In this document: positions 11,738 to 25,865 of the stretch, one piece after another
How the letters are laid out: each line of letters opens with the position of its first letter
How positions within the stretch are numbered: position 1 is the first letter of the stretch
Assembly: GCA_007695115.1 (NCBI GenBank)
Contig: REEK01000063.1
Location: 1-35,153, forward strand
Direction: 5' to 3'
Source of the DNA: Sphaerobacteraceae bacterium
GTDB lineage: Bacteria > Chloroflexota > Chloroflexia > Thermomicrobiales > Thermomicrobiaceae
Length of the DNA: 35,153 nt
Position numbers and translations under genes: made by a program
The notes under the pieces: model-generated
The model's database searches: none
What the model saw: only the letters and a program-made list of their open reading frames with translations
What the model was told of the DNA's origin: nothing

Positions 11738-12583
11738 TTACTTCTCCGCGTCTTTACCCCGGTAGGTTGGCTCAGACGGTGCAGGAGTTGCCGGGTCCGT
11801 AACAGTATCCGTGTCGTCAACCGCATCATCATCTACCGCGTCATCGTCATCGGCGACCTCGGTATCGTCGGTGACGTCGGTGTCGTCAACCGCATCGTCA
11901 TCTACTGCGTCATCATCATCGGCTACCGCATCATCGGCTTCCGGATCTGGCCCTTCGACGATGATCGTGCCGAGCATTCCTGCGTCCTGGTGTGGGTAGC
12001 AGAAATATATGTACGTACCCGGAACATCCAGAGTGATACTGAATGATTCATCCGGATTGATACTGCCGGAGTGCCACGGTTCAGCACCTTCTGGCAGCTC
12101 GACATGAGACTCATCGGTGGCGATCTCAGGATCCGCCGACGCCGTGTGAACCTCATCGGTCATGTTGACCCAGGTTACGGTGTCTCCCGGCGCGATCGTG
12201 ATCTCGGCCGGCGAGAACTCGTTGTCGTCTGTCAGTTCGATGATGTGTTCGACAGGTTCGGCGACTTCGTCTTCGTCGTCCAGTGCATCGTCGGTCGCTT
12301 CGGCGTCGTCCGTCGCGTCATCGACTTCAGCATCGTCGGTGGTGTCGTCAGTTGCGTCGTCAGTTGCGCTGTCGTCACTCACACTATCGTCAGCGCTATC
12401 GTCGATGGCGTCGTCATCATCGACAACGGCGTCATCGGCATCATCCGTTTGCTGGGAATCCATGACGGGTGTTTCGCTAGGGTCGACATCCCCGGCGTCA
12501 TCGGCATCTTCCGCCGATATCGAGCAGGCCGCCAGCATCGCTACAAGCATGAGAACTGGCGCAAGAATTCTTAGCGCGCGCAT
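11738..12583 (-). CDS. Cupredoxin lipoprotein, Met axial ligand, Asp-rich flanks
   Basis: 281 residues. The lipobox is MLVAMLAAC (Cys20). An extremely Asp-rich linker (about 25-108) is followed by a plastocyanin/halocyanin-like domain at about 110-210 and a second Asp-rich tail. The copper ligands are H146 (DEVHTAS), C195, H198 and M203 (FCYPHQDAGMLG), with exact plastocyanin spacing (C+3, H+5). The tail has a perfect 17-residue repeat, VADDDDAVDDDAVDDTD, at 220-236 and 243-259. It is probably a membrane-anchored type 1 copper electron carrier on the outer face. MRALRIL at 12583 is the start: a GGGGGAG box lies just upstream and the signal peptide begins there. Its own promoter lies at 12636-12664. 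Two paralogues follow in this window. Confidence 0.9.
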   Translation of the reverse strand: MRALRILAPVLMLVAMLAACSISAEDADDAGDVDPSETPVMDSQQTDDADDAVVDDDDAIDDSADDSVSDDSATDDATDDTTDDAEVDDATDDAEATDDALDDEDEVAEPVEHIIELTDDNEFSPAEITIAPGDTVTWVNMTDEVHTASADPEIATDESHVELPEGAEPWHSGSINPDESFSITLDVPGTYIYFCYPHQDAGMLGTIIVEGPDPEADDAVADDDDAVDDDAVDDTDVTDDTEVADDDDAVDDDAVDDTDTVTDPATPAPSEPTYRGKDAEK

Positions 12584-12635
12584 AGCATAACTCCCCCGTG
12601 TGTTACGCAAACACAAATTGCGAATTACCTTCGTT

Positions 12636-12664
12636 ACCGTACCCTGTTCCTGACCAGTTGTCAA
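12636..12664 (-). promoter_or_regulatory. Candidate promoter of the Met-type cupredoxin gene
   Basis: On the minus strand, TTGACA (12659-12664) is followed by a 17-bp spacer and TACGGT (12636-12641). The -35 is perfect and the -10 is weak (3 of 6). It lies about 50 nt upstream of the start codon. Confidence 0.5.
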
Positions 12665-12861
12665 CTCCGAATACCAACTAACTGACATGCTGTCACCTGC
12701 CAAATGCTGTGACTGCGGGGCACACCCCTTTACACATGCGGAATACGTACAGCCTCGTGGTTGCTCTGCCGGGTTATGGTCGGCGGGAGTGGCAAGGAGT
12801 CACAGGAAATCATGACGATAATGTCAATCGAGGGTGTACGGACTGTGACTCTGCGTCGGGC

Positions 12862-12904
12862 AAAAAGCGCTTGAGCCACTCCGACAAATGGGAGTGGCTC
12901 AAGC
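12862..12904 (-). terminator. Rho-independent terminator of the Gln-type cupredoxin gene
   Basis: A perfect 14-bp stem at 12869-12904 (GCTTGAGCCACTCC / GGAGTGGCTCAAGC, 8-nt loop). On the minus strand it is followed, after a short GC, by TTTTT at 12862-12866. Confidence 0.9.
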
Positions 12905-12931
12905 AGGGAAAGGGGGCGTGTTGCGGTCCAG

Positions 12932-13576
12932 CTAGAGGTAGTCGTCAGTCTCGTCATCGTCCTGATCGTCGTCCGAGCTGTCATCGTCGGAAGATTCGGG
13001 CGGCGTTTCGCCTTCTTCGAGGACCGTTATGGATCCGATCTGGCCCAGAACCTCGTGCGGACGACAGAAATAGACGTAGTCTCCGGGCACTTCCAGCGTG
13101 ATGCTGAACTCATCTCCCGGATCCAGATCGCCGGAATCCCACGGTTCAGCGCCTTCGGGCAGTACCGCGTTGTCCGGATCGCGAACGATCTCCGGATCGA
13201 GCGTTGCTGTGTGGTTGATGCGCCCGGTGTTGATAAAGGTAATGGTGTCCCCGAGTGCGATGACCACCTCGTCGGGATCGAAATCGTGCGGGTCCTGGAT
13301 CTCGACGATGTGCTCGACTGGCTCCCCGTTCTCCGCTGTCCCTGGGGTTGCCGTCTCTTCCGGCTCGGCATCGGGCTCAGCCGTCGCGGTTGGATCTGGT
13401 TCAGCGGTTGCGGTCGGGGTCGGATCGGCTTCATCCGGGGTGGGCGATGACTCGGCGGCCACCGCATCATCGCTGGAGTCGTCGGTTGCGCGGTCATCGG
13501 ACGACTCGGTTGAAGCGCAGGCGGCGAGTAGCGCGAAGATTAGCAATGAAACAAGAACGACGGACAGTCTGCGCAT
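12932..13576 (-). CDS. Cupredoxin lipoprotein with Gln at the axial-ligand position
   Basis: 214 residues. The signal peptide ends in lipobox ALLAAC (Cys20). Then come a Pro/Thr/Glu-rich linker to about 85, a cupredoxin domain at about 87-186 and an Asp-rich tail. The ligands read H122 (INHTATL), C171, H174 and Q179 (FCRPHEVLGQIG). Gln takes the place of the usual Met, as in stellacyanin, where it lowers the copper redox potential. It shares LPEGAEPW.SG with its paralogues. GGAGG lies 6 nt before ATG. It has its own TTGACA-17-TATTGT promoter and a strong terminator, so it is monocistronic. Its probable role is electron transfer at the outer membrane-facing surface; the partner may be the neighbouring flavoprotein, but this is inference. 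Confidence 0.9.
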   Translation of the reverse strand: MRRLSVVLVSLLIFALLAACASTESSDDRATDDSSDDAVAAESSPTPDEADPTPTATAEPDPTATAEPDAEPEETATPGTAENGEPVEHIVEIQDPHDFDPDEVVIALGDTITFINTGRINHTATLDPEIVRDPDNAVLPEGAEPWDSGDLDPGDEFSITLEVPGDYVYFCRPHEVLGQIGSITVLEEGETPPESSDDDSSDDDQDDDETDDYL

Positions 13577-13655: not shown

Positions 13656-13732
13656 CCATAGTAGCTTCGCTTCTGCAAGTTTCGGACGCGCAGTGATCCC
13701 AGCAGGTTTAGATACATGAAGAAGCGCCCGGC

Positions 13733-13751
13733 GGGGGTTAGACCGGGCGCT
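13733..13751 (-). terminator. Probable terminator of the flavoprotein-cupredoxin gene
   Basis: The arms AGCGCCCGG and CCGGGCGCT are perfect. On the minus strand the stem is followed by TTCTTC, a poor U-tract. It lies 35 nt after the stop. Confidence 0.55.
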
Positions 13752-13785
13752 CGCGACGGAGGAGTTGTAGGAAGGGTGAGCGAGA

Positions 13786-16020
13786 TTACTCTTCGACGGT
13801 AATCGATCCGACCTGGCCAGCTACCTCATGCGGAATGCAGGCATAGGTGTAATCACCGGCGACCTCGAACGTGTAGGTCCACGCTTCACCGGCTTCCAGG
13901 TTGCCGGAGTGCCAGGCTTCGGCCCCATCCGGCATCTGAGCGTTGACTTCGTCAAAGGCGCGATCCGGATCACAGGTGGCGGTGTGCATCATCTGTCCGA
14001 CGTTGACGAAGGTGATGCTGTCGCCGACCCGGATGTCGATGTGCTCTGGATCGAAGGTCAGATCATCCTTGATCTCGACGGTATGGTCCTGTGGTTCAGC
14101 AGCCACATCGTCATCATCGTCGTCGTCTTCTTCGACTTCATCCTCCTCTTCGTCCGGCTCGTCGACATCATTAGCGTCATCATCTTCTGGCTCTTCTTCA
14201 TAGCCTTCGTCTGGTTCATCGTCGTCTGACGGTTCGATGTCGTCGGTAACGCTGAGTCCGGCGATGTATCCAAAGGTCAGGGCCGGCCCGAGAGTGCCAC
14301 CGGCGGCCCAGTATGCTTGCCCTGCCGGCGAGGCAACGCAATTCCCTGCGCCATAGAGGCCCGGGATGGGATTGCCAGCTGCATCGAGCACCTGCGCGTT
14401 CTCATTGATCTTCGGTCCCCCCTTTGTATCGAGCGCACCGGCACAGACGATCACACAATAGTATGGACCTTCTTCGGAAAGCGGGTGCATCATCTGGTTT
14501 GGGTAGTCGTGTTCTGGGGCTGGCCCATAGAGGTTATGGAAACTCTCTTCGAATGGCACTTCGCCGCGATGAAACTGGCGGTCTTCACCAGTTTCAGCGA
14601 ACAGATTGAACTGGTTCAACGTACCGTGCAGGTTGGAAAGAAATTCTTCATCGAGTGCGACCCCACCAGAGCTCATCTCTAGCTCTTCGAGGCGCGACTG
14701 GAGATTAGCCTCAAGGTCTTCAAGTGTTTCGCCCCGGATTACATAACTGTCGTCAGCGTCAGGTTGGGAAATTGGATACCATCCGGCGAACTCATCAGCG
14801 GTTCGCTGATCATAGACCATGAACAGGAGCAGGTTCGTGTACTCGGCACGCACCGGATCCCAGTTGAAATGGATCTGACTGCGCTCGTTGTACTGCATTT
14901 TTTCGTTCATAACTCGATGACCGAATCGGTTCACCTGGAGAACACTGTCCCCGGGAGTTTGCCAGAGAGTCTGAGGAACGGAGGACTGATCAAGAACCTG
15001 TTCGTATACGACCTGGGTCCACCAGGCGTTCTGCATATTGCCGAGCTCTGCACCCGCTGATGCCCCAATGTAGACGAAATCGCCCTCAGCGCTCGGGACG
15101 GCACATCCACCATAAATTGGTCCACGAAGGAACTCGCGTCGCAAAGTGGAATTGTGAGTAAAGCCACCGGTACCAAAGATCACACCGGCGCTCGCACCGA
15201 AATACAGAGTTTCGTCGTCTGGAGTTTGCACCTCAACACCGACGACCGCCCCGTCCTCATCCTGAACCAACCGCGTCACTCGATGTTCCAGCAGAATCGG
15301 GATGTCACGATCCTCAACAGCGGTTCGAAGCTGCACAATCAACTCTCCACCGCTTCCTGAGCCGCCTTCTTCAGTTTCTGGGTTCATTTCACGCCCGAAA
15401 GGAGCTGCATTTTCAGGAAGGTGTGCGTGGTAATCAGGAGATTCGAGATCCACTATTGATCTAACTGCGCCCATTTCGTCTAGCGCGTCGATCGCATCCG
15501 AAGCCTTGTCGTAAAAGGCTTCGATCAAACGGAAATTGTGTTCGGAAAGACCAAGATTTTCGGCTTCTGGATGATACATGTGCGGATAGGAGAGCCGGGC
15601 CATGTACCGAATCGCGTCTTCGCGGGGATCGTCCAAACCTGCGGCACGCATCTGAGAGTTGTTCGGGATCCAGTACGTACCGCCTGAAACGGCTGTTGTC
15701 CCCCCAAAGGACTCAGTCTTCTCCAGTATTGCAACTGACGCGCCACTCTCGTGTGCTGTCACTGCGGCTGATCCAGCTGCGGCACCACTACCAACAACGA
15801 CGACATCGAACTCATCGTCCCACTCGAACTCGTCTTCGTCTTCCTGAGCCAGGACGATCGGCTCGGTGTCCTTCGGGTTCAGTGCCCCGCCATGGAAGTT
15901 GGCCACTGCGGCGCCAGCCGCACTTGCGCCGGCCGCTTTCAGCAGGCCCCGACGTGAGAACATCGAACGAAGTCGACTGGGAGTATCTTCCTGTGCCACG
16001 AACTGGCTCCATTCCATCAT
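13786..16020 (-). CDS. Tat-exported KstD/fumarate-reductase-like flavoprotein fused to a C-terminal cupredoxin
   Basis: 744 residues. The twin-arginine signal SRRGLLKAAGASAAGAAVA lies at 22-40. The FAD-binding site VVVGSGAAAGSAAV starts near 74, followed by SFGGTTAVSGGTYWIPNN, typical of the 3-ketosteroid-delta1-dehydrogenase / fumarate reductase flavoprotein group. The flavoprotein part ends near 590 with GAGNCVASPAGQAYWAAGG and TLGPALTFGYIAG. An almost wholly acidic linker of about 45 residues leads to a cupredoxin domain (641-744) with H679, C728, H731 and Q736, again Gln at the axial position. The flavin could oxidise an organic substrate outside the membrane and pass electrons to the tethered copper. 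The substrate is not readable; steroid-like is only a family suggestion. The ribosome binding site is weak. It has a clear promoter and a divergent TetR gene. Confidence 0.92.
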   Translation of the reverse strand: MMEWSQFVAQEDTPSRLRSMFSRRGLLKAAGASAAGAAVANFHGGALNPKDTEPIVLAQEDEDEFEWDDEFDVVVVGSGAAAGSAAVTAHESGASVAILEKTESFGGTTAVSGGTYWIPNNSQMRAAGLDDPREDAIRYMARLSYPHMYHPEAENLGLSEHNFRLIEAFYDKASDAIDALDEMGAVRSIVDLESPDYHAHLPENAAPFGREMNPETEEGGSGSGGELIVQLRTAVEDRDIPILLEHRVTRLVQDEDGAVVGVEVQTPDDETLYFGASAGVIFGTGGFTHNSTLRREFLRGPIYGGCAVPSAEGDFVYIGASAGAELGNMQNAWWTQVVYEQVLDQSSVPQTLWQTPGDSVLQVNRFGHRVMNEKMQYNERSQIHFNWDPVRAEYTNLLLFMVYDQRTADEFAGWYPISQPDADDSYVIRGETLEDLEANLQSRLEELEMSSGGVALDEEFLSNLHGTLNQFNLFAETGEDRQFHRGEVPFEESFHNLYGPAPEHDYPNQMMHPLSEEGPYYCVIVCAGALDTKGGPKINENAQVLDAAGNPIPGLYGAGNCVASPAGQAYWAAGGTLGPALTFGYIAGLSVTDDIEPSDDDEPDEGYEEEPEDDDANDVDEPDEEEDEVEEDDDDDDDVAAEPQDHTVEIKDDLTFDPEHIDIRVGDSITFVNVGQMMHTATCDPDRAFDEVNAQMPDGAEAWHSGNLEAGEAWTYTFEVAGDYTYACIPHEVAGQVGSITVEE

Positions 16021-16193
16021 CGCGCAGATGTGCTGCGCACTTCATGTAAGACGCACGGGGAGCTTTGTGCTGCAGGTCTCCCACCTCGATCTCTGATGCT
16101 TCACCTGGCCAGATGCCGCGAGTTGAAAATTTCGCCTGTGCGATACTCAGTGCGTCACCGGGGACACAGCGAGCCAGAGATGTTGCTCCTGTG

Positions 16194-16222
16194 ATCTTAT
16201 TGGCACTGAGTGTCATTGTCAA
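16194..16222 (-). promoter_or_regulatory. Promoter of the flavoprotein-cupredoxin gene
   Basis: On the minus strand, TTGACA (16217-16222, perfect), a 17-bp spacer and TAAGAT (16194-16199, 4 of 6). The spacer contains the near-palindrome at 16201-16215. It lies 174 nt from the start codon, leaving a long leader. Confidence 0.72.
16201..16215. promoter_or_regulatory. Candidate TetR operator inside the promoter spacer
   Basis: TGGCACTGAGTGTCA is a 15-bp palindrome around a central G with one mismatched pair (6 of 7 pairs match). It lies exactly between the -35 and -10 of the minus-strand promoter, in the divergent region shared with the TetR gene. Related half-sites (GAGTGTCA, GTGTGTCAT) occur up to about 16236. 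Confidence 0.5.
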
Positions 16223-16298
16223 CAGAGTGTGTCATCCTGAAGGCGTATTCCGTGCAATGAGAGATTCATCATCAGATCTGCTGAGGGAGCGTGGCAGC

Positions 16299-16889
16299 GT
16301 GAATCAAACAAATCACCCCGGGAATATGCAGGAGCGCAAACACCAGTTTGCATTGGCAGAAATCCAGGGAGTTGCCTTCGATCTCTTCCTGGAGAAAGGG
16401 TACGACGGGACAACTGTCGATGAGATCGCAGCGGGAGCGGGCATCTCACGACGGACGTTCTTCCGATACTACGAGACTAAAGAAGACGTGGTCATGGTGG
16501 CGCTTTCGCAAAGCGGGGAGTTCCTTGAGTCGTTGATTTCGCAACGTCCGGCCGATGAACCTCCGCTGGTCGCGTTTCAACGCGCGATGCGTGATTTTCT
16601 CAGCCACTATCAGGCGGCGGATCCGAAAGCGTGGCGGATTCTGGATCTGATCCAGTCAACGCCACGGTTGCGCGCACGTTACCTGCTGGAGCGGCAGAGC
16701 TGGATGCCCCAACTGACCCGGGTGCTCAGCGATCGGGCAACCAGCGAGAACAATGCCGAGATCGCGGCGATAACCGGGCTGGCCATTCTGGCGTTTGTCT
16801 ATGATCGCTGGCAACAGAATCCGGATATTGATGTCGGTCAGGCGGTGATCGATGCCTTTGAGACGCTACAGGATTTGCTTGGCGCCTGA
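16299..16889 (+). CDS. TetR-family transcriptional regulator
   Basis: 196 residues, usual TetR size. The N-terminal helix-turn-helix is near residues 22-66: AFDLFLEKGYDGTTVDEIAA then GISRRTFFRYYETKED, the classic TetR signature. The C-terminal helical domain (67-196) is the ligand-binding and dimerisation part and is not family-specific; it resembles the MftR-like group with a bulky aromatic C-terminus. GTG 16299 is chosen because GAGGGAG lies 9 nt upstream; an ATG at 16257 would give a longer tail without a ribosome binding site. It is transcribed divergently from the flavoprotein-cupredoxin gene, which it probably represses through the near-palindrome in that promoter. The inducer is unknown. 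Confidence 0.92.
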   Translation: MNQTNHPGNMQERKHQFALAEIQGVAFDLFLEKGYDGTTVDEIAAGAGISRRTFFRYYETKEDVVMVALSQSGEFLESLISQRPADEPPLVAFQRAMRDFLSHYQAADPKAWRILDLIQSTPRLRARYLLERQSWMPQLTRVLSDRATSENNAEIAAITGLAILAFVYDRWQQNPDIDVGQAVIDAFETLQDLLGA

Positions 16890-17626: not shown

Positions 17627-17730
17627 TTGTAGGTACTGACCGGGGGCTTGGGCGAGCCAGGCTGAGAGGGTAACCATGAACCGTTACCGACCGGAGAACC
17701 TGACCTGGGTAATGCCAGCGTAGGGACAAC
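17627..17730 (+). ncRNA. TPP riboswitch (THI element)
   Basis: The conserved core is unmistakable: GGGGGCTT near 17642, GGCTGAGAGGG at 17660-17670, GAGAACCTGACCTGGGTAAT at 17694-17713 and GCCAGCGTAGGGA at 17714-17726. TTGT (17627-17630) and ACAA (17726-17729) can close P1. It binds thiamine pyrophosphate. The terminator directly downstream shows that it acts by transcription attenuation: TPP bound, operon off. It controls the five genes from 17848 to 22604, fitting their thiamine-salvage role. Confidence 0.96.
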
Positions 17731-17747
17731 GGCCTTGATCCATGATC

Positions 17748-17782
17748 AACACGCTGTCACCTTCGGGCAGCGTGTTTTGTTT
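17748..17782 (+). terminator. Riboswitch expression-platform terminator
   Basis: The stem AACACGCTG / CAGCGTGTT (9 bp, 17748-17756 and 17768-17776) runs into TTTTGTTT at 17775-17782. A competing TTGATC / GATCAA hairpin at 17736-17749 overlaps its left arm and may be part of the antiterminator. Confidence 0.88.
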
Positions 17783-17847
17783 GCTCCGGCATCTGACGAT
17801 ACCTCTGGTTCTCCCGGCCCCCGGTTCTTCAGGGAGAGGTGGGCGCC

Positions 17848-19131
17848 ATGCCCGATGTGAGCCGAGCAGCAATCCGACAGGCGATACGCGAACGCTCCAG
17901 CGAGCTGGTTGACCTGGCCAGCCACCTGATTCGCTTTCCGACACTCAGTCCGCCCGGCCGAAATACGGTCGACCTCCAGGCCGAGGTGGCCCGTTATCTG
18001 GGCGATGCCGGCTTCGAGACAGACACCTTCGAGGTCTTTCCGGGCGATGTCGATGTGGTCGGCACCCGTCGGGGTAGTGACGCCGATTCCCATGCTTCCA
18101 TTATCTTCAACGGTCATGTCGATGTGGCCGAGATCGGCGATCCAGCTGCCTGGACCCATGATCCGTTCGATCCGGTGGTGGATGGCGACCGCCTCTATGG
18201 ACGTGGTGCCTGCGACATGAAAGGCCCGCTGGCTGCGGCGATGTTCGCGGCAAGAGTAGTTGGCGATCTCGGAGTCGAGCAGCGGGGCGATCTGATTATT
18301 CAGTCGGTCATCGGCGAGGAGATGGGCGAGGCCGGAACCCTGACGGCGAACGAGCGCGGCTATCGGGCCGACTATGCGATCGTCCCCGAACCGATGGAGT
18401 TCCGGATTTGCGGCCAGGGTGGCGTGATTACTGGCTGGATCGACATCCAGAGTCCGGAGACGCTGCACGACGGCGTTCGCGCCCGGACGATCCACGCCGG
18501 CGGTGGTCTCGATGGGGCCAGTGCGATCGAGAAGATGACGAAGATCGTCAGCACGCTGGGCGATCTCGAGCGCCACTGGGCCGTGATGAAGCACTATCCC
18601 GGTTTCCCGCCCGGCACCACAACGATCAACCCGGCGGTGATCGAAGGCGGCCGCCATCCTGCGTTTATCGCCGATGCCTGCAGCCTCTGGATCACGGTGC
18701 ATTTTTACCCGGACGAGACATGGGAATCAGTGACGCAGGAGATCGAAGATCACGTGATGCGGGCTGCATCCGCCGATCTCTGGATGCGCAACAACCCACC
18801 GACGTTCCGCTGGGGCGGGCGATCGATGATCGAGGACAGGGGCGAGATCTTCCCGGCCTCGGCCATCCCGGAGAGCCACCCGGCTACGCACCTGCTGGAA
18901 GCGATTCACCAGGACGTTCTGGGGAGCGACCCCGTTCACGAGATGACCACCACGGTGACGGACTCTGGCTGGCTGGAATCGGCCGGGATTCCCACCGTCA
19001 TCTACGGCCCGGGAAGCCTGAATCAGGCGCATACCATCGATGAATGGATATCTATTGAAGAGCTGACCACCGCGGCCGAGATCTACGCGGTGATGATTGC
19101 CGAGTGGTGCAACCGGGAGAAACCGAGCTGA
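17848..19131 (+). CDS. M20-family amidohydrolase, probable formylaminopyrimidine deformylase (YlmB-like)
   Basis: 427 residues of the ArgE/DapE/ACY1 family. The metal-site residues are H90 and D92 (FNGHVDV), D123 (GRGACDMKG) and the catalytic pair E157-E158 (GEEMGEAGT), with the C-terminal ligand histidine in LNQAHTIDEW. Context names the substrate: it lies directly behind a TPP riboswitch and ahead of a ThiXYZ-type transporter and TenA. This is the setting of Bacillus YlmB, which removes the formyl group from N-formyl-4-amino-5-aminomethyl-2-methylpyrimidine, a thiamine breakdown product. Residue-level proof of that specificity is not available here. ATG 17848 is used because AGGGAGAGG lies just upstream; a GTG at 17839 falls inside that site. 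Its stop overlaps the next start (TGATG). Confidence 0.88.
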   Translation: MPDVSRAAIRQAIRERSSELVDLASHLIRFPTLSPPGRNTVDLQAEVARYLGDAGFETDTFEVFPGDVDVVGTRRGSDADSHASIIFNGHVDVAEIGDPAAWTHDPFDPVVDGDRLYGRGACDMKGPLAAAMFAARVVGDLGVEQRGDLIIQSVIGEEMGEAGTLTANERGYRADYAIVPEPMEFRICGQGGVITGWIDIQSPETLHDGVRARTIHAGGGLDGASAIEKMTKIVSTLGDLERHWAVMKHYPGFPPGTTTINPAVIEGGRHPAFIADACSLWITVHFYPDETWESVTQEIEDHVMRAASADLWMRNNPPTFRWGGRSMIEDRGEIFPASAIPESHPATHLLEAIHQDVLGSDPVHEMTTTVTDSGWLESAGIPTVIYGPGSLNQAHTIDEWISIEELTTAAEIYAVMIAEWCNREKPS

Positions 19132-19952
19132 TGGCGGTGAACCATCCTCCCGAGGCAGCGTTGATCGTCGATAGAGTCAGCAAGACCTTTCCGGATCGCT
19201 CGGGAAGCGTCGACGCGCTGAATGACGTCAACCTGAGCGTCGGGTTCGGCGAGTTCTTCAGCATCGTTGGTCCCAGTGGCTGCGGGAAGAGCACGCTGTT
19301 GAACATCATCGCCGGTCTGGAAGCCGAAGATGCCGGATCGATTGATGTCGGGGAGAACGGGGCGTCTTCCCGGGATGAATCCCGACTTGGGCAGGTCGCT
19401 TACATGCCCCAGAAGGATTTACTGCTGCCGTGGCGCACCGTTCGACAGAACGCTGCACTGGGGCTGGAGTTGACTGGGGTGAAGGCATCGATTGCCCACG
19501 AACGGGCCGATACGCTGCTCCAGCAGTTCGGACTCGCCCGGTTTGCCGATGCCTACCCGGCCACGCTCTCCGGCGGCATGCGCCAGCGAACCGCATTCCT
19601 GAGAACGGTGCTGACTGATCGCCCGGTGATGCTCCTGGATGAGCCGTTCGGCGCTCTGGATGCCCTCACCCGTCGGGCGATGCAGGAGTGGTTGCTGGAT
19701 GTCTGGAGCGAGATGCAGCGAACCGTGCTCCTGATTACCCACGACGTTGATGAGGCCATCTTCCTTTCGGATCGGGTTGCTGTGATGAGTCAGCGTCCGG
19801 GGACGTTGATCCACACCCATCCGGTCGATCTGCCGAGACCGAGAACCGCCGAGATCGTTACCGAGCCGGCGTTCATGGAGATCAAGCGAGACGTGCTGCG
19901 AGATCTGCAATCGAGCATGAGCCTGAACGAGGGTCTCAATGCATCTCAGTGA
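19131..19952 (+). CDS. thiZ: ABC transporter ATPase for thiamine pyrimidine precursor
   Basis: 273 residues of the nitrate/sulfonate/taurine (SsuB/TauB) ATPase group. Walker A GPSGCGKST (47-55), Q-loop MPQKDLLLPW (Q94), signature LSGGMRQR (146-153), Walker B VMLLDEPFGALD (166-177) and switch histidine H204 in LITHD are all intact. It powers import of formylaminopyrimidine through the adjacent permease and lipoprotein; the substrate is inferred from the riboswitch, the deformylase and TenA. The start ATG overlaps the previous stop, with GGGAGA 10 nt upstream. A longer GTG/ATG frame from 19104 would overlap the deformylase further and is less likely. The gene overlaps the permease start by 14 nt, indicating translational coupling. 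Confidence 0.9.
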   Translation: MAVNHPPEAALIVDRVSKTFPDRSGSVDALNDVNLSVGFGEFFSIVGPSGCGKSTLLNIIAGLEAEDAGSIDVGENGASSRDESRLGQVAYMPQKDLLLPWRTVRQNAALGLELTGVKASIAHERADTLLQQFGLARFADAYPATLSGGMRQRTAFLRTVLTDRPVMLLDEPFGALDALTRRAMQEWLLDVWSEMQRTVLLITHDVDEAIFLSDRVAVMSQRPGTLIHTHPVDLPRPRTAEIVTEPAFMEIKRDVLRDLQSSMSLNEGLNASQ

Positions 19953-20733
19953 TCGTGGTCTGGAGCGACTGGCCTCCGGCATTCAGTGGGTTGTTCCTGC
20001 GGTCCTGCTGGGGTTCGGGCTCGCCATCTGGGAAGTGCTGGTGCGTGTTCGGGACACGCCGGCCTGGATGCTTCCACCACCGTCGGCGATTGGACAGTCG
20101 CTGATCGACGATCGAGCAATGCTCTTCGAGCATACGCTGGCAACGGCGCAGGCCGCGTTGATTGGCTTCGGGGTCGCCTTCCTGGTGGGTGTTGGCTCGG
20201 CGATCGCGATCACCTCGACCCCGATTCTGGAGCGGTCGCTCTATCCGGTGATCATCGCTACGAATGCGATTCCGGTGATCGCCATTGCGCCGTTGCTATT
20301 GATCTGGTTCGGCTATGGATTGACGCCGAAGATCATCGTCGTCGCGCTGATCTGTTTCTTCCCGATCGCGGTCAACACCATCGATGGGCTGCGCTCGGTC
20401 GACCGGGAGATGGTCAACCTGCTGCGCAGTCTGGGGGCCAGTCGCTGGGCGACATTCCGACTGGTGCGATTTCCGATGTCGCTACCATACGTGTTCTCCG
20501 GTACCCGGATCGCCGCAGCGGTGAGCGTGATCGGCGCACTGGTGGCGGAGTGGGTCGGGTCATCATCCGGGCTGGGCTATCTGATGATCCGGTCGGCATC
20601 CCAGTTTCTGACCGACCGTGTGTTTGCCGCAATCTTCATTGCCGCGTTGATGGGAATCACGATGTTCGTTGCGATCAGTTTGCTGGAGCGCTGGCTGCTA
20701 CCGTGGCGCCGGCTTGAACGAGAGAGGAACTAG
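19939..20733 (+). CDS. thiX: ABC transporter permease for thiamine pyrimidine precursor
   Basis: 264 residues with about six transmembrane segments (near 15-36, 62-88, 98-118, 124-145, 190-212 and 232-252). The inner-membrane component signature is at LLRSLGASRWATFRLVRFPMSLP, the EAA-like loop that docks on the ATPase. It belongs to the SsuC/TauC/ThiX family (BPD_transp_1). It is encoded between the ATPase and the binding protein, overlaps the former by 14 nt and is 4 nt before the latter. Substrate assignment rests on the riboswitch-controlled context. Confidence 0.9.
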   Translation: MHLSDRGLERLASGIQWVVPAVLLGFGLAIWEVLVRVRDTPAWMLPPPSAIGQSLIDDRAMLFEHTLATAQAALIGFGVAFLVGVGSAIAITSTPILERSLYPVIIATNAIPVIAIAPLLLIWFGYGLTPKIIVVALICFFPIAVNTIDGLRSVDREMVNLLRSLGASRWATFRLVRFPMSLPYVFSGTRIAAAVSVIGALVAEWVGSSSGLGYLMIRSASQFLTDRVFAAIFIAALMGITMFVAISLLERWLLPWRRLERERN

Positions 20734-20737
20734 CACG

Positions 20738-21839
20738 ATGAAGCATGCGTTGGAGACGATGGTTCGGCGGACACGTCAGAGTGTAGCGGTGGCGCTGATG
20801 CTGACTGTTGCGCTGGCCCTGGGACTGGCTGGCTGCGCTGACCGTATTGGTGGGGATGACCCCGATGAGGTCTCGCTGGCCCTGGACTGGTATCCGTGGG
20901 CGAATCACTCGCCGTTCTTTCTAGCCGACGAGCGCGGATACTTCGACGAAGAAGATCTGGACGTCGATATCCACGTTCCGGCAAACCCGGAGGACGTCCT
21001 GATGCTGGTTGGCTCGGGCCGGGACACGTTCGGTATCAGTTACCAGACATCTGTGCTGCAGGCCCGGCAAGAGGACATCCCGGTGCAGTCGGTGGCGGCA
21101 CTGGTGCAGTATCCACTGAATTCGATCATGACGCTGGAAGGCTCCGGGCTTGAGAGTCCGGGTGGTGCAGTATCCGCTGAATTCGATCATGACGCTGGAA
21201 GGCTCCGGGCTTGAGAGTCCGGGGGACCTGGCCGGCATGCAGATCGGCTATCCGGGGATCCCCAGTAATGAAGCGCTCCTGGAGACGATGCTGGAGTCCG
21301 AGGGGTTGACGCTCGATGATGTCGAGCTGGTCAACGTCGGCTTCAACCTGGTTCAGGCGCTTATCGCCGAGCAGGTGGATGCGATCATCGGCGCCTACTG
21401 GGTGCATGAGTCGATCCTGGCCGAGAACGAAGGCTTCCCGGTGAACATCATGCGGGTCGAAGATCACGAGGTCCCGATCTACTATGAACTAGTGCTGGTG
21501 GCCAGTGATGAGACGATCGAGGATAACCCGGAGATGGTCGAGCGGTTCGTTCGGGCGATGCAGCAGGGCTATCACGAGGCGATGGACGATTTCGATGCCG
21601 CAACCGACGCGATGATGGAGGAGTATCCGGATACCGATCGGGCGCTGGAATCCGACTCGATCGTCATGCTGGCCCCGCTCTGGACCGAAGGCGCCGACTA
21701 CTTCGGTCAGCAGACCACCGAGCGCTGGCAGGACTTCGCGGACTGGATGATCGATGGCGGGTTGCTCGATCCCGACACCGATGTAGAAAACGCGTTTACC
21801 AATGAGTTTGTCGAAGCAGCGACTGAGGACGACGAGTAG
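20738..21839 (+). pseudogene. thiY: Substrate-binding lipoprotein of the ThiXYZ transporter, frame broken by a 61-bp duplication
   Basis: An NMT1/THI5-like periplasmic-binding lipoprotein. The signal peptide has lipobox LGLAGC, then LALDWYPWANHSPFFLADERGYF, typical for pyrimidine-precursor binding proteins. The frame runs from 20738 but ends at a stop at 21212-21214. The remainder (QYPLNSIMTL...EAATEDDE) is read in another frame to 21839. The cause is a tandem copy of 61 bp (21102-21162 and 21163-21223), identical apart from one A/G. Removing one copy gives a continuous 346-residue protein of normal length. As shown, only a truncated protein would be made and transport should fail. Assembly error, strain mixture or real reversible duplication are all possible. 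The start has AGAGGAA 9 nt upstream. Confidence 0.88.
21102..21223 (+). repeat. 61-bp tandem duplication inside the binding-protein gene
   Basis: Copy 1 is 21102-21162 and copy 2 is 21163-21223. They differ only at one position, CCA versus CCG for the same proline codon. The unit is 61 nt, so it adds one base modulo 3 and shifts the frame. Confidence 0.95.
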
Positions 21840-21859
21840 CCTGGTCCTGACTCTTCTCC

Positions 21860-21898
21860 CCCCTCTCTCAGTATTGGGAGAGGGGCCGGGGGTGAGGG
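21860..21898. repeat. REP-like palindromic element
   Basis: CCCCTCTCTCA (21860-21870) and TGGGAGAGGGG (21875-21885) form an 11-bp stem with one T-G pair and a gtat loop, followed by CCGGGGGTGAGGG. This family of CTCTCCC...GGGAGAGGG...GGTGAGG repeats is widespread between bacterial genes. It lies between the binding-protein stop and tenA and may stabilise mRNA or attenuate transcription. Confidence 0.65.
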
Positions 21899-21926
21899 CT
21901 GACGCTTCATAAGAAAGGACACACCT

Positions 21927-22604
21927 GTGACCACCCGCTTCACTCAGCAACTCTGGCACGACATCGAACCGATCTGGAGCGCGATCCAGGCGCACCCGTT
22001 CCTCACCGGACTGACAGATGGCTCGCTGCCCGAAGACATCTTCCGGCAGTACGCGGTTCAGGATGCGCTCTACCTGCAGGCTTATGCCCGGTCACTGGCG
22101 GCGGCATCATCCAAAGCCACGAAGGACGAGTGGTGCGAGATGTTCGCCGATCACGCCCGGGGAATCCTGGTCGATGAGCGCGCGCTACATGCCTCGTTCT
22201 TCGGCAAGTGGGGCATGACGCCAGAAGACGTCTACAACACCGAAGCCCTTCCGACCACTGAGGCGTACAACTCCTACCTGCTGCGGGTAGCCTATGGGCA
22301 TCCGTTCGAAGAGATTCTCGGCGCCATCCTGCCCTGCTACTGGATCTACTGGGAAGCTGGCAAAGTGCTCGGGCAGAACGGCTCGCCGAATCCGGACTTC
22401 CAGCAGTGGATCGACACCTACTCGGCCGATGAGTTCGCCGACGTCGTCCAGTCCGTCATCGATTGCACCGATGAAGTCGCCGCCAACCTCCCGGACGAGC
22501 GCAAAGCCCTCATCCGCAAGCACTTCATCACCACTTCTCGGTATGAGTACCTGTTCTTTGATGCAGCCTGGCAGAAGGAAAGCTGGGCAGTGGGGCCACG
22601 GTAG
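21927..22604 (+). CDS. tenA: Aminopyrimidine aminohydrolase (thiaminase II)
   Basis: 225 residues. It converts 4-amino-5-aminomethyl-2-methylpyrimidine, the deformylase product, to hydroxymethylpyrimidine, which re-enters thiamine synthesis; it can also hydrolyse thiamine. The active-site residues match Bacillus TenA with a constant shift of two: D46 (YAVQDALYL), C137 (ILPCYWIYWEAG) and E207 (SRYEYLFFD). The length is normal. The start is GTG 21927 with AAAGGA 7 nt upstream. It is last in the riboswitch operon, after a REP-like palindrome, so its level may be tuned separately. No terminator is seen immediately downstream. Confidence 0.95.
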   Translation: MTTRFTQQLWHDIEPIWSAIQAHPFLTGLTDGSLPEDIFRQYAVQDALYLQAYARSLAAASSKATKDEWCEMFADHARGILVDERALHASFFGKWGMTPEDVYNTEALPTTEAYNSYLLRVAYGHPFEEILGAILPCYWIYWEAGKVLGQNGSPNPDFQQWIDTYSADEFADVVQSVIDCTDEVAANLPDERKALIRKHFITTSRYEYLFFDAAWQKESWAVGPR

Positions 22605-22961
22605 AGGCCGAGCGATCAGCAGTTGTAACGCTGTTCACCACCACCACCTGATCCCGGTGGATAGCTCGGGGCAGTATTCAATGCTGTGACGTTTCAGTTT
22701 GCTGAATTCGGGTCGCAGCGTTCTCATCTGCTGCAGTACATTCGCTACTGGGCTCGGATTCCGTCCCGGGACCACAAGTTCAAATTCGAAGTTTCCGGAG
22801 ATGAGCATTACCTGGTTATTGCCTTCGAACCGATCGATGCGGGCTGCTTATGTTCACGCGATGTTGCGCTGATTACGGTAAGATGAGCAACATTCAGCCA
22901 GCCGGGACAAACAATGTGCGGTTCAGCAGGTGCACTGCTCCAACAGAAAGTATGGGCTCCC
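22605..22961. other. 357-bp intergenic region between tenA and the first OYE gene
   Basis: No recognisable gene, promoter or terminator. A 66-codon open frame (22686-22886, GTG start, no clear ribosome binding site) overlaps nothing on either strand, contains RYWARIPSRDHKFKFEVSGD and could be a decayed or very small gene; I have no family for it. The last 48 nt could encode an N-terminal extension of the OYE gene from 22914. Confidence 0.4.
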
Positions 22962-24317
22962 ATGGAAGCAGACTCCATCTTTCAGCCGTTGCCGTTTCAC
23001 TCGCTCACTCTCCGCAACAGAATACTTCGCGCAAATATCGCTGGTCGGTTTGACAACGCGGATGGTTCAGGAAATCGAGCCAGAATCAACTGGGAACTGA
23101 AGTTTGCGAAAGGCGGAGTGGGAGCAATCATTTCGGCATTCGCACCGGTGGATGTTCGCGGCCGAATAGTGCCGAACTATGCGGCTATTGATCGCGATGA
23201 GTTTGTGCCCTTCTGGCGCGAGCTCGGTCGTCAGGTTCACGAATACGACTGCAAGTACATCGTTCAGCTTGCTCACGGAGGTCGTCAACGTGACATCCGC
23301 GGAATCGAATACGCAAAGGGGCTCAGTTCAACAGACAAGCCGGACCCGGTCCACGGGTTCGAAGCCGAACGTATGAGCCTCCAGGATATCCATGACGTCA
23401 CGAGGTCATTCGCGAACGCTGCACGCCGGGCTCGGGAAGCGGGCCTCGATGGAATTGAAATTCATGGTGCCAATGGATACCTGTTCACGCAGTTCCTGAG
23501 TTCGGCAATCAACGACCGGGACGATGACTACGGTGGATCACTTGAAAACAGAGCAAGGTTATTGCTGGAGGTTGTCCAGGCGATTCGCTCCGAAGTTGGT
23601 CGAGATTTCCATCTTCAGGTCAAACTCAGCACAACCGAATACGCCAATGTGCTGAATCCATGGGCGGACCGGGGAAACACGATCGAGGATTCCGTCAAGG
23701 TGTGTCAGTGGCTGGAAGCAGCCGGAGTGGATGCAATTCATGTCTCGTCGGGCAGCATGTTTGCACATCCGAGAAATCCCGCCGGGTCGTTTTCTGTGAA
23801 AGAGGTGGCGAAGACCTACGACACGCTTCTTGGAAGTGGAAGGTACGCATTCCGAAATTACGTGCTTTTCCAGATCTGGCCATTCAACGCGCTCTTTGGG
23901 CGGTTATGGCGGCGTCAGGGGTTGAGCCTGGACAGGGTCGAAGGGGCAAATCTGAGTGACGCCGCGGCGGTGAAACAGGCAGTCTCGATTCCAGTTCTGT
24001 GCACGGGTGGATTTCAGAGGGCGTCACTTATTCGACAGGCACTCGACAAAGATCAGTGCGACGCCGTGACGATTGCTCGGCCGCTTGTCGCGAACAACGA
24101 CCTCGTCAAAATGTTCGAGCAGGGATTCGATCAACCTCCTGTTCCATGCACCTACTGCAACAAATGCCTTTTCAATGTCTTGAAGAACCCGCTGGGTTGT
24201 TATGACGAAAGCCGGTACTCCTCACACCAGGAGATGCTCGATCAGATCATGTCAGTCTACGACCCGCCTTCATTTTCATCGGCGGATAACGATCAGATCG
24301 AACGACCCAGCGCCTGA
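22962..24317 (+). CDS. OYE-family NADH:flavin oxidoreductase with C-terminal Cys cluster (paralogue 1)
   Basis: 451 residues. An FMN-binding TIM barrel of the old yellow enzyme class: QLAHGGRQ near residue 102, GLDGIEIHGANGYLFTQFLS with the usual DDYGGSLENRARLLLE, and the phosphate-binding TGGFQRASLI. Near the end CTYCNKC plus GC after ten residues (CxxCxxC-x10-C) resembles the 4Fe-4S site of 2,4-dienoyl-CoA reductase-like OYEs, but the FAD/NAD(P) domain those carry is missing. It should reduce activated C=C bonds; the substrate is unknown. MEADSIF at 22962 lines up with the paralogue's start, though its ribosome binding site is poor; ATG 22914 is the alternative. It shares about 60% identity by eye with the next gene, so a tandem duplication is likely. 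Confidence 0.88.
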   Translation: MEADSIFQPLPFHSLTLRNRILRANIAGRFDNADGSGNRARINWELKFAKGGVGAIISAFAPVDVRGRIVPNYAAIDRDEFVPFWRELGRQVHEYDCKYIVQLAHGGRQRDIRGIEYAKGLSSTDKPDPVHGFEAERMSLQDIHDVTRSFANAARRAREAGLDGIEIHGANGYLFTQFLSSAINDRDDDYGGSLENRARLLLEVVQAIRSEVGRDFHLQVKLSTTEYANVLNPWADRGNTIEDSVKVCQWLEAAGVDAIHVSSGSMFAHPRNPAGSFSVKEVAKTYDTLLGSGRYAFRNYVLFQIWPFNALFGRLWRRQGLSLDRVEGANLSDAAAVKQAVSIPVLCTGGFQRASLIRQALDKDQCDAVTIARPLVANNDLVKMFEQGFDQPPVPCTYCNKCLFNVLKNPLGCYDESRYSSHQEMLDQIMSVYDPPSFSSADNDQIERPSA

Positions 24318-24518: not shown

Positions 24519-25865
24519 ATGTCTGCTACTTCGTCGAACGTGATCTTCACCCCACTGGAGTTTCGCAAGCTGACAATCAAAAATAGAATTCTCCGTTCCA
24601 GTCTCTCAGGCAGGTTCGATAACTACGATGGGTCCGGCACCGAGACCAGAATCAACTGGGACACGCGTTTCGCCGAGCAGGGTATTGGCGCGATCATTTC
24701 TTCCGGGGCGCCAATTCATCGCCGCGGATTGATCGTCCCCAACTACGCGTTCATCGATCATGATGACCGAATCCCATTCTGGCGAGAGATCGGTCAGCGT
24801 GTTCACGAGTTCGACTGTAAGTACATCGTTCAGCTGGTCCATGCCGGGCGGCAGCGCGACCTTGGCGGTCTGGACTACGAGAAGGGGCTCAGTTCGACGA
24901 ACAAGCCCGACCCTCTGCATGGGTTCGAAGCCGAGCGTATGACCCTTCCGCAGATCTACCAGACAATAAAAGACTTTGCGGACGCCGCACGGAGAGTCCG
25001 GGAGGCGGGCCTTGATGGAATCGAGATCCATGCTTGTAATGGCTATCTCATAACTCAGTTTCTCAGCTCAGCAATCAACGATCGCAAGGATCAGTATGGC
25101 GGATCGCTGGGAAACCGTGCCCGTTTTCTGCGAGAGATTGTCAAGGCTATTCGTGCTGAGGTGGGTGACGATTTCCATTTGCAGGTCAAGATCAGTACGA
25201 CCGAATATAACAATGCGTTGTTCCCCTGGCATAAGGAGGGGAACTCGCTGGATGAGTCTGTTCAGATTTGTAAATGGCTCGAGGAAGATCGAGTTGATGC
25301 GATTCACGTCTCCACCGGGAGCCTGTTCCCGCACCCCCGGAATCCGGCGGGTGACTTCCCGTTGAAAGACCTTGTCGAGACCTATAACACCGTCATTTCC
25401 AGTGGGCTCTACACGCTGCGCAACTACCTTGCGTTCCGAACCTGGCCGCTTGGTCGACTTGCGCAGCATCAGTGGGAAAAAGCTCGCGGAGATCGTATTG
25501 AAGGTATCAGCCTGCCGGATTCGCGGGTTGTGAAACAGGCAGTGAACATACCAGTCATGGTTACTGGCGGGTTCCAGACTGCGTCAGTTATCAGCGGAGC
25601 GATCGATCAAGGGGCCTGTGATGCAGTCACCATGGGTCGCACGATTCTGGCGAACCCCGACATTGTGAAACTCTTTGCCGACGGACATGATGAGCCACCA
25701 CTCCCCTGCACGTACTGCAACAAATGTCTGGTGAACTTCATTGAGCACCCACTTGGATGCTACGACGAAACCAGATTCCACTCCCGCGAGGAGATGTTGC
25801 GCCAGATTTACTCTGTCTATGACGGGCCATCATACCGGGAGCAACACTCTTCGGCTGCGGACTGA
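24519..25865 (+). CDS. OYE-family NADH:flavin oxidoreductase with C-terminal Cys cluster (paralogue 2)
   Basis: 448 residues with the same layout as the upstream paralogue: IKNRILRSSLSGRFDNYDGSG at the N-terminus, QLVHAGRQRDL near 105, GLDGIEIHACNGYLITQFLS, DQYGGSLGNRARFL, TGGFQTASVISGA and the Cys pattern CTYCNKC...GC near 410-425. It too lacks the C-terminal NAD(P)-binding domain. An unusual central insertion (RNYLAFRTWPLGRLAQHQW) separates the barrel's later strands in both paralogues and could be membrane-associating or substrate-shaping. GGGGGA precedes ATG. A lipase gene follows after 27 nt and a phosphoesterase after that, suggesting an operon. Function beyond ene reduction is not known. 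Confidence 0.9.
   Translation: MSATSSNVIFTPLEFRKLTIKNRILRSSLSGRFDNYDGSGTETRINWDTRFAEQGIGAIISSGAPIHRRGLIVPNYAFIDHDDRIPFWREIGQRVHEFDCKYIVQLVHAGRQRDLGGLDYEKGLSSTNKPDPLHGFEAERMTLPQIYQTIKDFADAARRVREAGLDGIEIHACNGYLITQFLSSAINDRKDQYGGSLGNRARFLREIVKAIRAEVGDDFHLQVKISTTEYNNALFPWHKEGNSLDESVQICKWLEEDRVDAIHVSTGSLFPHPRNPAGDFPLKDLVETYNTVISSGLYTLRNYLAFRTWPLGRLAQHQWEKARGDRIEGISLPDSRVVKQAVNIPVMVTGGFQTASVISGAIDQGACDAVTMGRTILANPDIVKLFADGHDEPPLPCTYCNKCLVNFIEHPLGCYDETRFHSREEMLRQIYSVYDGPSYREQHSSAAD

Follow-up and report, generated by a model that had tools for sequence, protein, structure and literature searches.

A predicted Tat-exported flavoprotein of the ketone desaturase type with its own plastocyanin-like domain in a Sphaerobacteraceae bacterium

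Organization of the fusion gene and its surroundings

The window analysed here is a stretch of 35,153 nucleotides from a Sphaerobacteraceae bacterium (contig REEK01000063.1), and its minus strand carries, from position 16020 down to 13786 with the stop codon included, one uninterrupted frame of 744 codons, the plus strand being full of stops over the same interval. The encoded protein of 744 amino acids bears the twin-arginine motif SRRGLLK (aa 22-28; 15937-15957), an FAD_binding_2 flavoprotein domain (aa 72-577; 14290-15807), an acidic linker in which 36 of the 58 residues are Asp or Glu and which is predicted to be disordered (aa 591-648; 14077-14250), and a plastocyanin-type cupredoxin domain (aa 649-743; 13792-14076), all on the minus strand. 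Both Pfam domains score far over the curated cut-offs, with E 1.2e-52 and 180 bits against 20.4 for FAD_binding_2, and E 3e-13 and 50 bits against 21.2 for Copper-bind (PF00127), and the two-domain fusion is confirmed far beyond chance. The original prediction had located a flavoprotein and a cupredoxin in a single frame at 13786-16020, with an RR signal, an acidic linker between the domains and the copper-site residues H679, C728, H731 and Q736, and it is borne out in all these points; the strand, which it had not given, is the minus strand. A structure prediction had been proposed as a route to the distance between flavin and copper. The AlphaFold2 model, obtained with a 42-row alignment of the window protein and proteins from the fetched loci, does contain two confident domains, with pLDDT mostly >90 for the enzyme block and ~97 for the cupredoxin, but that distance cannot be read from it because linker residues 606-639 are predicted to be disordered (pLDDT <50).

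Three cupredoxin genes or domains lie side by side on this strand, the fused domain being followed downstream by cup2 (12932-13576) and cup1 (11738-12703), both of them lipoprotein cupredoxins with the lipobox LAAC; cup2 has Gln as axial ligand and is 54% identical to the fused domain, and cup1, whose probable start is at MRALRIL, inside the listed ORF, has Met in this position and is 45% identical. A terminator-like hairpin of 15 pairs with a T-run (12868-12905) separates the two lipoprotein genes, and a GC-rich inverted repeat, terminator-like by eye and unlisted by the scan, is found downstream of the fusion gene (13722-13767, minus strand). On the opposite side, a gene of the TetR family (TetR_N, TetR_C_14; 16326-16889, plus strand) is divergent from the fusion gene and is its probable regulator. 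Further along the plus strand, positions 17630-22604 contain a TPP riboswitch (RF00059; E 9e-10; 53.4 bits, just missing the gathering score of 54.3), then an M20-family hydrolase gene, an ABC transporter with an NMT1/THI5-like binding protein, and TenA, an arrangement that looks like a thiamine-precursor salvage operon. Inside the NMT1/THI5-like gene, a 61-nt tandem duplication (21102-21223, plus strand; copies 98% identical), which may be a true mutation or an assembly slip, shifts the frame and splits the gene into the ORFs 20669-21214 and 21150-21839. Two genes of the Old Yellow Enzyme type (Oxidored_FMN) stand in tandem at 22914-24317 and 24519-25865 of the plus strand, and may be a pair that handles enones; the gene of the ketone desaturase is not far away.

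Affinities of the enzyme and of the copper domain

The closest solved relative of the window protein by sequence is the cyclohexanone dehydrogenase of Alicycliphilus denitrificans (AdCDH; PDB 8AM3, 8AM6 and 8AM8), with E 3e-129 and 41% identity over 558 aligned residues, and the same structures take the top rank in Foldseek, with a TM of 0.90 on the target. The catalytic residues of AdCDH, Tyr195, Tyr376, Tyr570 and Gly574 (PMC10966990), are all kept as Y197, Y377, Y570 and G574, four positions nearly invariant across 17 aligned homologues. The residues that close the mouth of the AdCDH site are Trp113, Tyr415 and Phe496, and a W113A variant of that enzyme has a wider substrate range (PMC10966990); in the window protein Y415 and F494 are kept, and T115 replaces W113. 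An N-terminal twin-arginine leader is likewise present in the AdCDH sequence, but a cupredoxin is not. The 3-ketosteroid delta1-dehydrogenases (KstD1, 4C3X; AcmB, 7P18) have the same fold and a related catalytic scheme but are farther away, at 26-27% identity and with no copper domain, and the fumarate reductases are farther still, at ~22%; among the latter, flavocytochrome c3 (1QJD; 22% identity) also combines a related flavin domain and a redox domain in one chain, but its extra domain is an N-terminal haem domain and it works in the reductase direction. The protein stays below the NCBIfam equivalog cut-offs for the steroid and cyclohexane-carboxylate enzymes that were listed, and also below that of TIGR01813 (flavocytochrome c/fumarate reductase; 140.7 vs 285.45 bits), and the domain search found no haem-binding domain in the protein. 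Identity and catalytic residues favour the CDH type, so that an identity as fumarate reductase is rejected and the enzyme half is assigned, on sequence grounds, to the CDH/KstD-type ketone desaturases. The class originally proposed, ketosteroid dehydrogenase/fumarate reductase, stands as a superfamily; its fumarate-reductase part does not. RR motifs or a Tat leader occur also in several unfused homologues, which means that export would predate the fusion and is not special to it.

In the C-terminal domain, the four copper-site residues align with the ligand positions of plastocyanin, Gln standing in place of the axial Met, and this spacing (two His, Cys and the axial Gln), together with the cupredoxin fold, points to a type-1 copper site of the plastocyanin family. 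The score of the domain against the plastocyanin equivalog TIGR02656 is 52.3 bits, short of the cut-off of 87.85, and the domain is best described as a predicted relative of plastocyanin, not as plastocyanin itself. With no start codon or signal peptide of its own, it would have to be exported by means of the enzyme's Tat signal. Among the 32 domains of a phylogenetic tree it forms a long branch next to the cup1/cup2 pair of the genus but outside it, with weak to moderate support (85/78); a recent origin by copying of the adjacent cupredoxin genes is rejected on these grounds, and the fused cupredoxin is most readily taken as an old, diverged relative of the lipoprotein cupredoxins downstream. 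An axial Gln is rare in this set (3 of the 32 domains), being found in the fused domain, in cup2 of this genome (G000) and in cup2 of the congener G012.

Age and distribution of the junction

In a congener, G013, the flavoprotein is unfused and stops shortly past the enzyme domain; it is 61-62% identical over residues 321-605, its upstream part being lost at the contig end, and the comparison with G000 gives a dN of 0.29 and a saturated dS of 3.2. Directly behind its stop, at ~12143 on the minus strand of locus L045 (G013:C95), lies an out-of-frame relic of the linker/cupredoxin junction, which reads EEDEDVAAERQDRTVEHQ where the window counterpart reads EDDDDDDDVAAEPQDHTVEIKDD. The two are identical in 38 of 48 nt (79%; pairwise E 4e-8), a score reached in 0 of 2000 shuffles, and 8 of the 10 mismatches fall on the third base of a codon in the frame of the window (P 0.003), a bias indicating that the junction had been translated and under selection before decaying; beyond the 48-nt relic, nothing of the cupredoxin is left. 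In a second congener, G012, a cassette of 3.1 kb comprising the TetR gene and the fusion (13768-16884, no strand assigned) is absent between two flanks that are 93% and 91% identical. The inverted repeat that follows the fusion gene is retained there, which suggests that the cassette was deleted in G012 rather than inserted here. Judged from these comparisons, the most economical history would place the fusion in an ancestor of the genus, the domain having disappeared later in G013 and the gene in G012; the assemblies are 70-98% complete, and the absence of a gene means correspondingly less.

An assembly or frame artefact joining two genes would agree with the single intact example, with the short-contig assembly and with the lack of an intact fusion in G013 and G012, but it is largely refuted and scarcely credible, since the linker DNA is without a near-identical copy elsewhere in the genome (the best other match is 84% over 49 nt), the cupredoxin lacks its own start and signal peptide, and an independent congener has the junction relic in the corresponding position. 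The combination of an assembly join and a lack of any homologue of the fusion, which the original prediction had named as one ground for its refutation, is therefore not what was found. The fusion can be regarded as real and older than this genome, given the relic at the same place in G013, and as dispensable, given the losses in G013 and G012.

Searches of about 1,200 different genomes yielded no further intact fusion; they covered 61 genomes from the order, 158 from the class, 400 from the phylum, 292 from a haloarchaeal class and 396 from a different phylum, to which an Actinomycetes locus had led, together with a plasmid collection. These searches scored the best candidates per genome only, so that rare fusions could escape, and the majority of species lies outside them. 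As to whether the fusion recurs, a question raised originally for Chloroflexota, the order, class and phylum sets gave the relic of G013 alone. A scan of genome contigs with the fusion protein returned two loci only, both matched through the cupredoxin part alone. The best unfused homologues (43-50% identity) end shortly after the enzyme domain, and no cupredoxin gene was detected in the six neighbourhoods of unfused homologues fetched outside the genus.

In the same class, long frames that include a cupredoxin are frequent. In some 25 such ORFs inspected, from the order or class and from one haloarchaeon, none has a recognised flavin domain, and the partner modules are beta-propellers, nitrite-reductase-like modules, multicopper oxidase domains and P-type ATPases with heavy-metal-associated domains. 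P-type ATPases of this kind with a C-terminal cupredoxin are encoded at L113:477-3347 and L124:178-3282, and a propeller of the PQQ alcohol-dehydrogenase type with a C-terminal cupredoxin in one chain at L112:15-2228 (G041:C417), in the same order. This last protein resembles the fusion in being a dehydrogenase-type module followed by a cupredoxin, but it differs in its cofactor (PQQ, not FAD), in its unrelated catalytic fold and in its cupredoxin, which is only ~34% identical. The joining of a catalytic or transport module to a cupredoxin is a habit of the lineage, and the flavin dehydrogenase as partner is the new element. Nothing relevant was found in the literature on cupredoxin-flavoprotein fusions, and the earlier statement that no described enzyme has such a layout is uncontradicted in the literature and structures searched; each half is known, and their join appears to be undescribed as far as the literature, structures and genomes searched show.

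A possible copper outlet for the flavin and its alternatives

The reading that we prefer, and consider probable though by a measured degree, is that of an exported FAD ketone desaturase in which electrons run from the flavin to the tethered copper, on to other carriers and to an oxidase; copper loading, the direction of flow, the substrate and the partners are what we infer in it. A Tat-exported FAD dehydrogenase of the CDH/3-ketosteroid-delta1-dehydrogenase group would desaturate a cyclic ketone, or a similar carbonyl compound, beside the carbonyl at the conserved Tyr/Tyr/Tyr-Gly site, and the two electrons on FAD would be passed singly to the type-1 copper of the plastocyanin-like domain, held near the enzyme by the flexible, highly acidic linker. 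The tethered copper could then dock with the membrane-anchored cup1/cup2 or with another carrier, and the electrons would finish at a haem-copper oxidase; four COX1-type (haem-copper) oxidase genes are present in the genome. Type-1 copper potentials are well above those of flavins, and the potential is lowered when Gln replaces Met as the axial ligand, as in stellacyanin; flavin to copper would thus be the downhill direction. Several points count against the preferred reading: there is one intact example only, and the linker is modelled as disordered, so that a flavin-copper contact does not follow from the model; the unfused homologues manage without a detectable cupredoxin gene in the fetched flanks; and W113 of AdCDH is T115 here, which bears on the substrate. 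The tether would moreover not be essential, as shown by G013, where the enzyme persisted without the cupredoxin.

The loss of the domain in G013 and of the whole gene in G012, the fetched flanks of the unfused homologues with no detectable cupredoxin gene, and the long branch of the fused domain would also suit a cupredoxin that serves as a docking or localisation module, or is a decaying passenger, the flavin being re-oxidised by O2, a quinone or another carrier with the copper off the path. We regard this as a serious but clearly less probable account, in view of four ligand positions that are all intact despite the long branch, a cupredoxin fold that AlphaFold2 predicts with confidence, and the past selection on the junction indicated by the third-position bias of the relic. 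The domain could instead mainly bind or buffer copper or another metal outside the cell, with no catalytic role, in agreement with the fusion of cupredoxins to P-type ATPases with heavy-metal-associated domains in the same class; the full type-1 ligand set is, however, of the electron-transfer kind, and no copper-resistance gene is recognised nearby, so that such a role is improbable. At least as improbable is a flow in the reverse direction, with the cupredoxin feeding the flavin of an exported enone- or fumarate-type reductase in the manner of flavocytochrome c3: haem-fed fumarate and urocanate reductases do belong to the same superfamily, but the Tyr/Tyr/Tyr-Gly set found in the active site is that of CDH/KstD-type dehydrogenases, and type-1 copper potentials are, in general, too high for enone reduction.

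As to the flow from flavin to copper in its most specific form, namely a natural flavo-cupredoxin dehydrogenase whose own Gln-ligated copper is the main outlet, evolved once in one genus and already lost in some of its species, we hold the chances to be evenly balanced. Cellobiose dehydrogenase, in which a flexible linker joins an electron carrier to a flavin dehydrogenase, is similar in principle to the fusion, but it is fungal and has haem b and an unrelated GMC flavin domain, where the fusion has copper instead. To our knowledge, only haem- or FeS-linked flavin dehydrogenases have been described so far, and no published flavin-copper dehydrogenase was found in the literature searched. If the copper takes the electrons of the flavin, the protein would amount to a flavin dehydrogenase wired by nature to a copper outlet, and to the copper counterpart of the haem-tailed flavin dehydrogenases. 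AdCDH has been assayed with the artificial acceptor DCPIP, a dye, and the fusion provides a clean way to test how exported enzymes of the CDH/KstD type dispose of their electrons, as well as a ready-made scaffold for electrode-wired ketone desaturation. Both the gain and the loss of a redox domain may be followed here within one genus, relic included.
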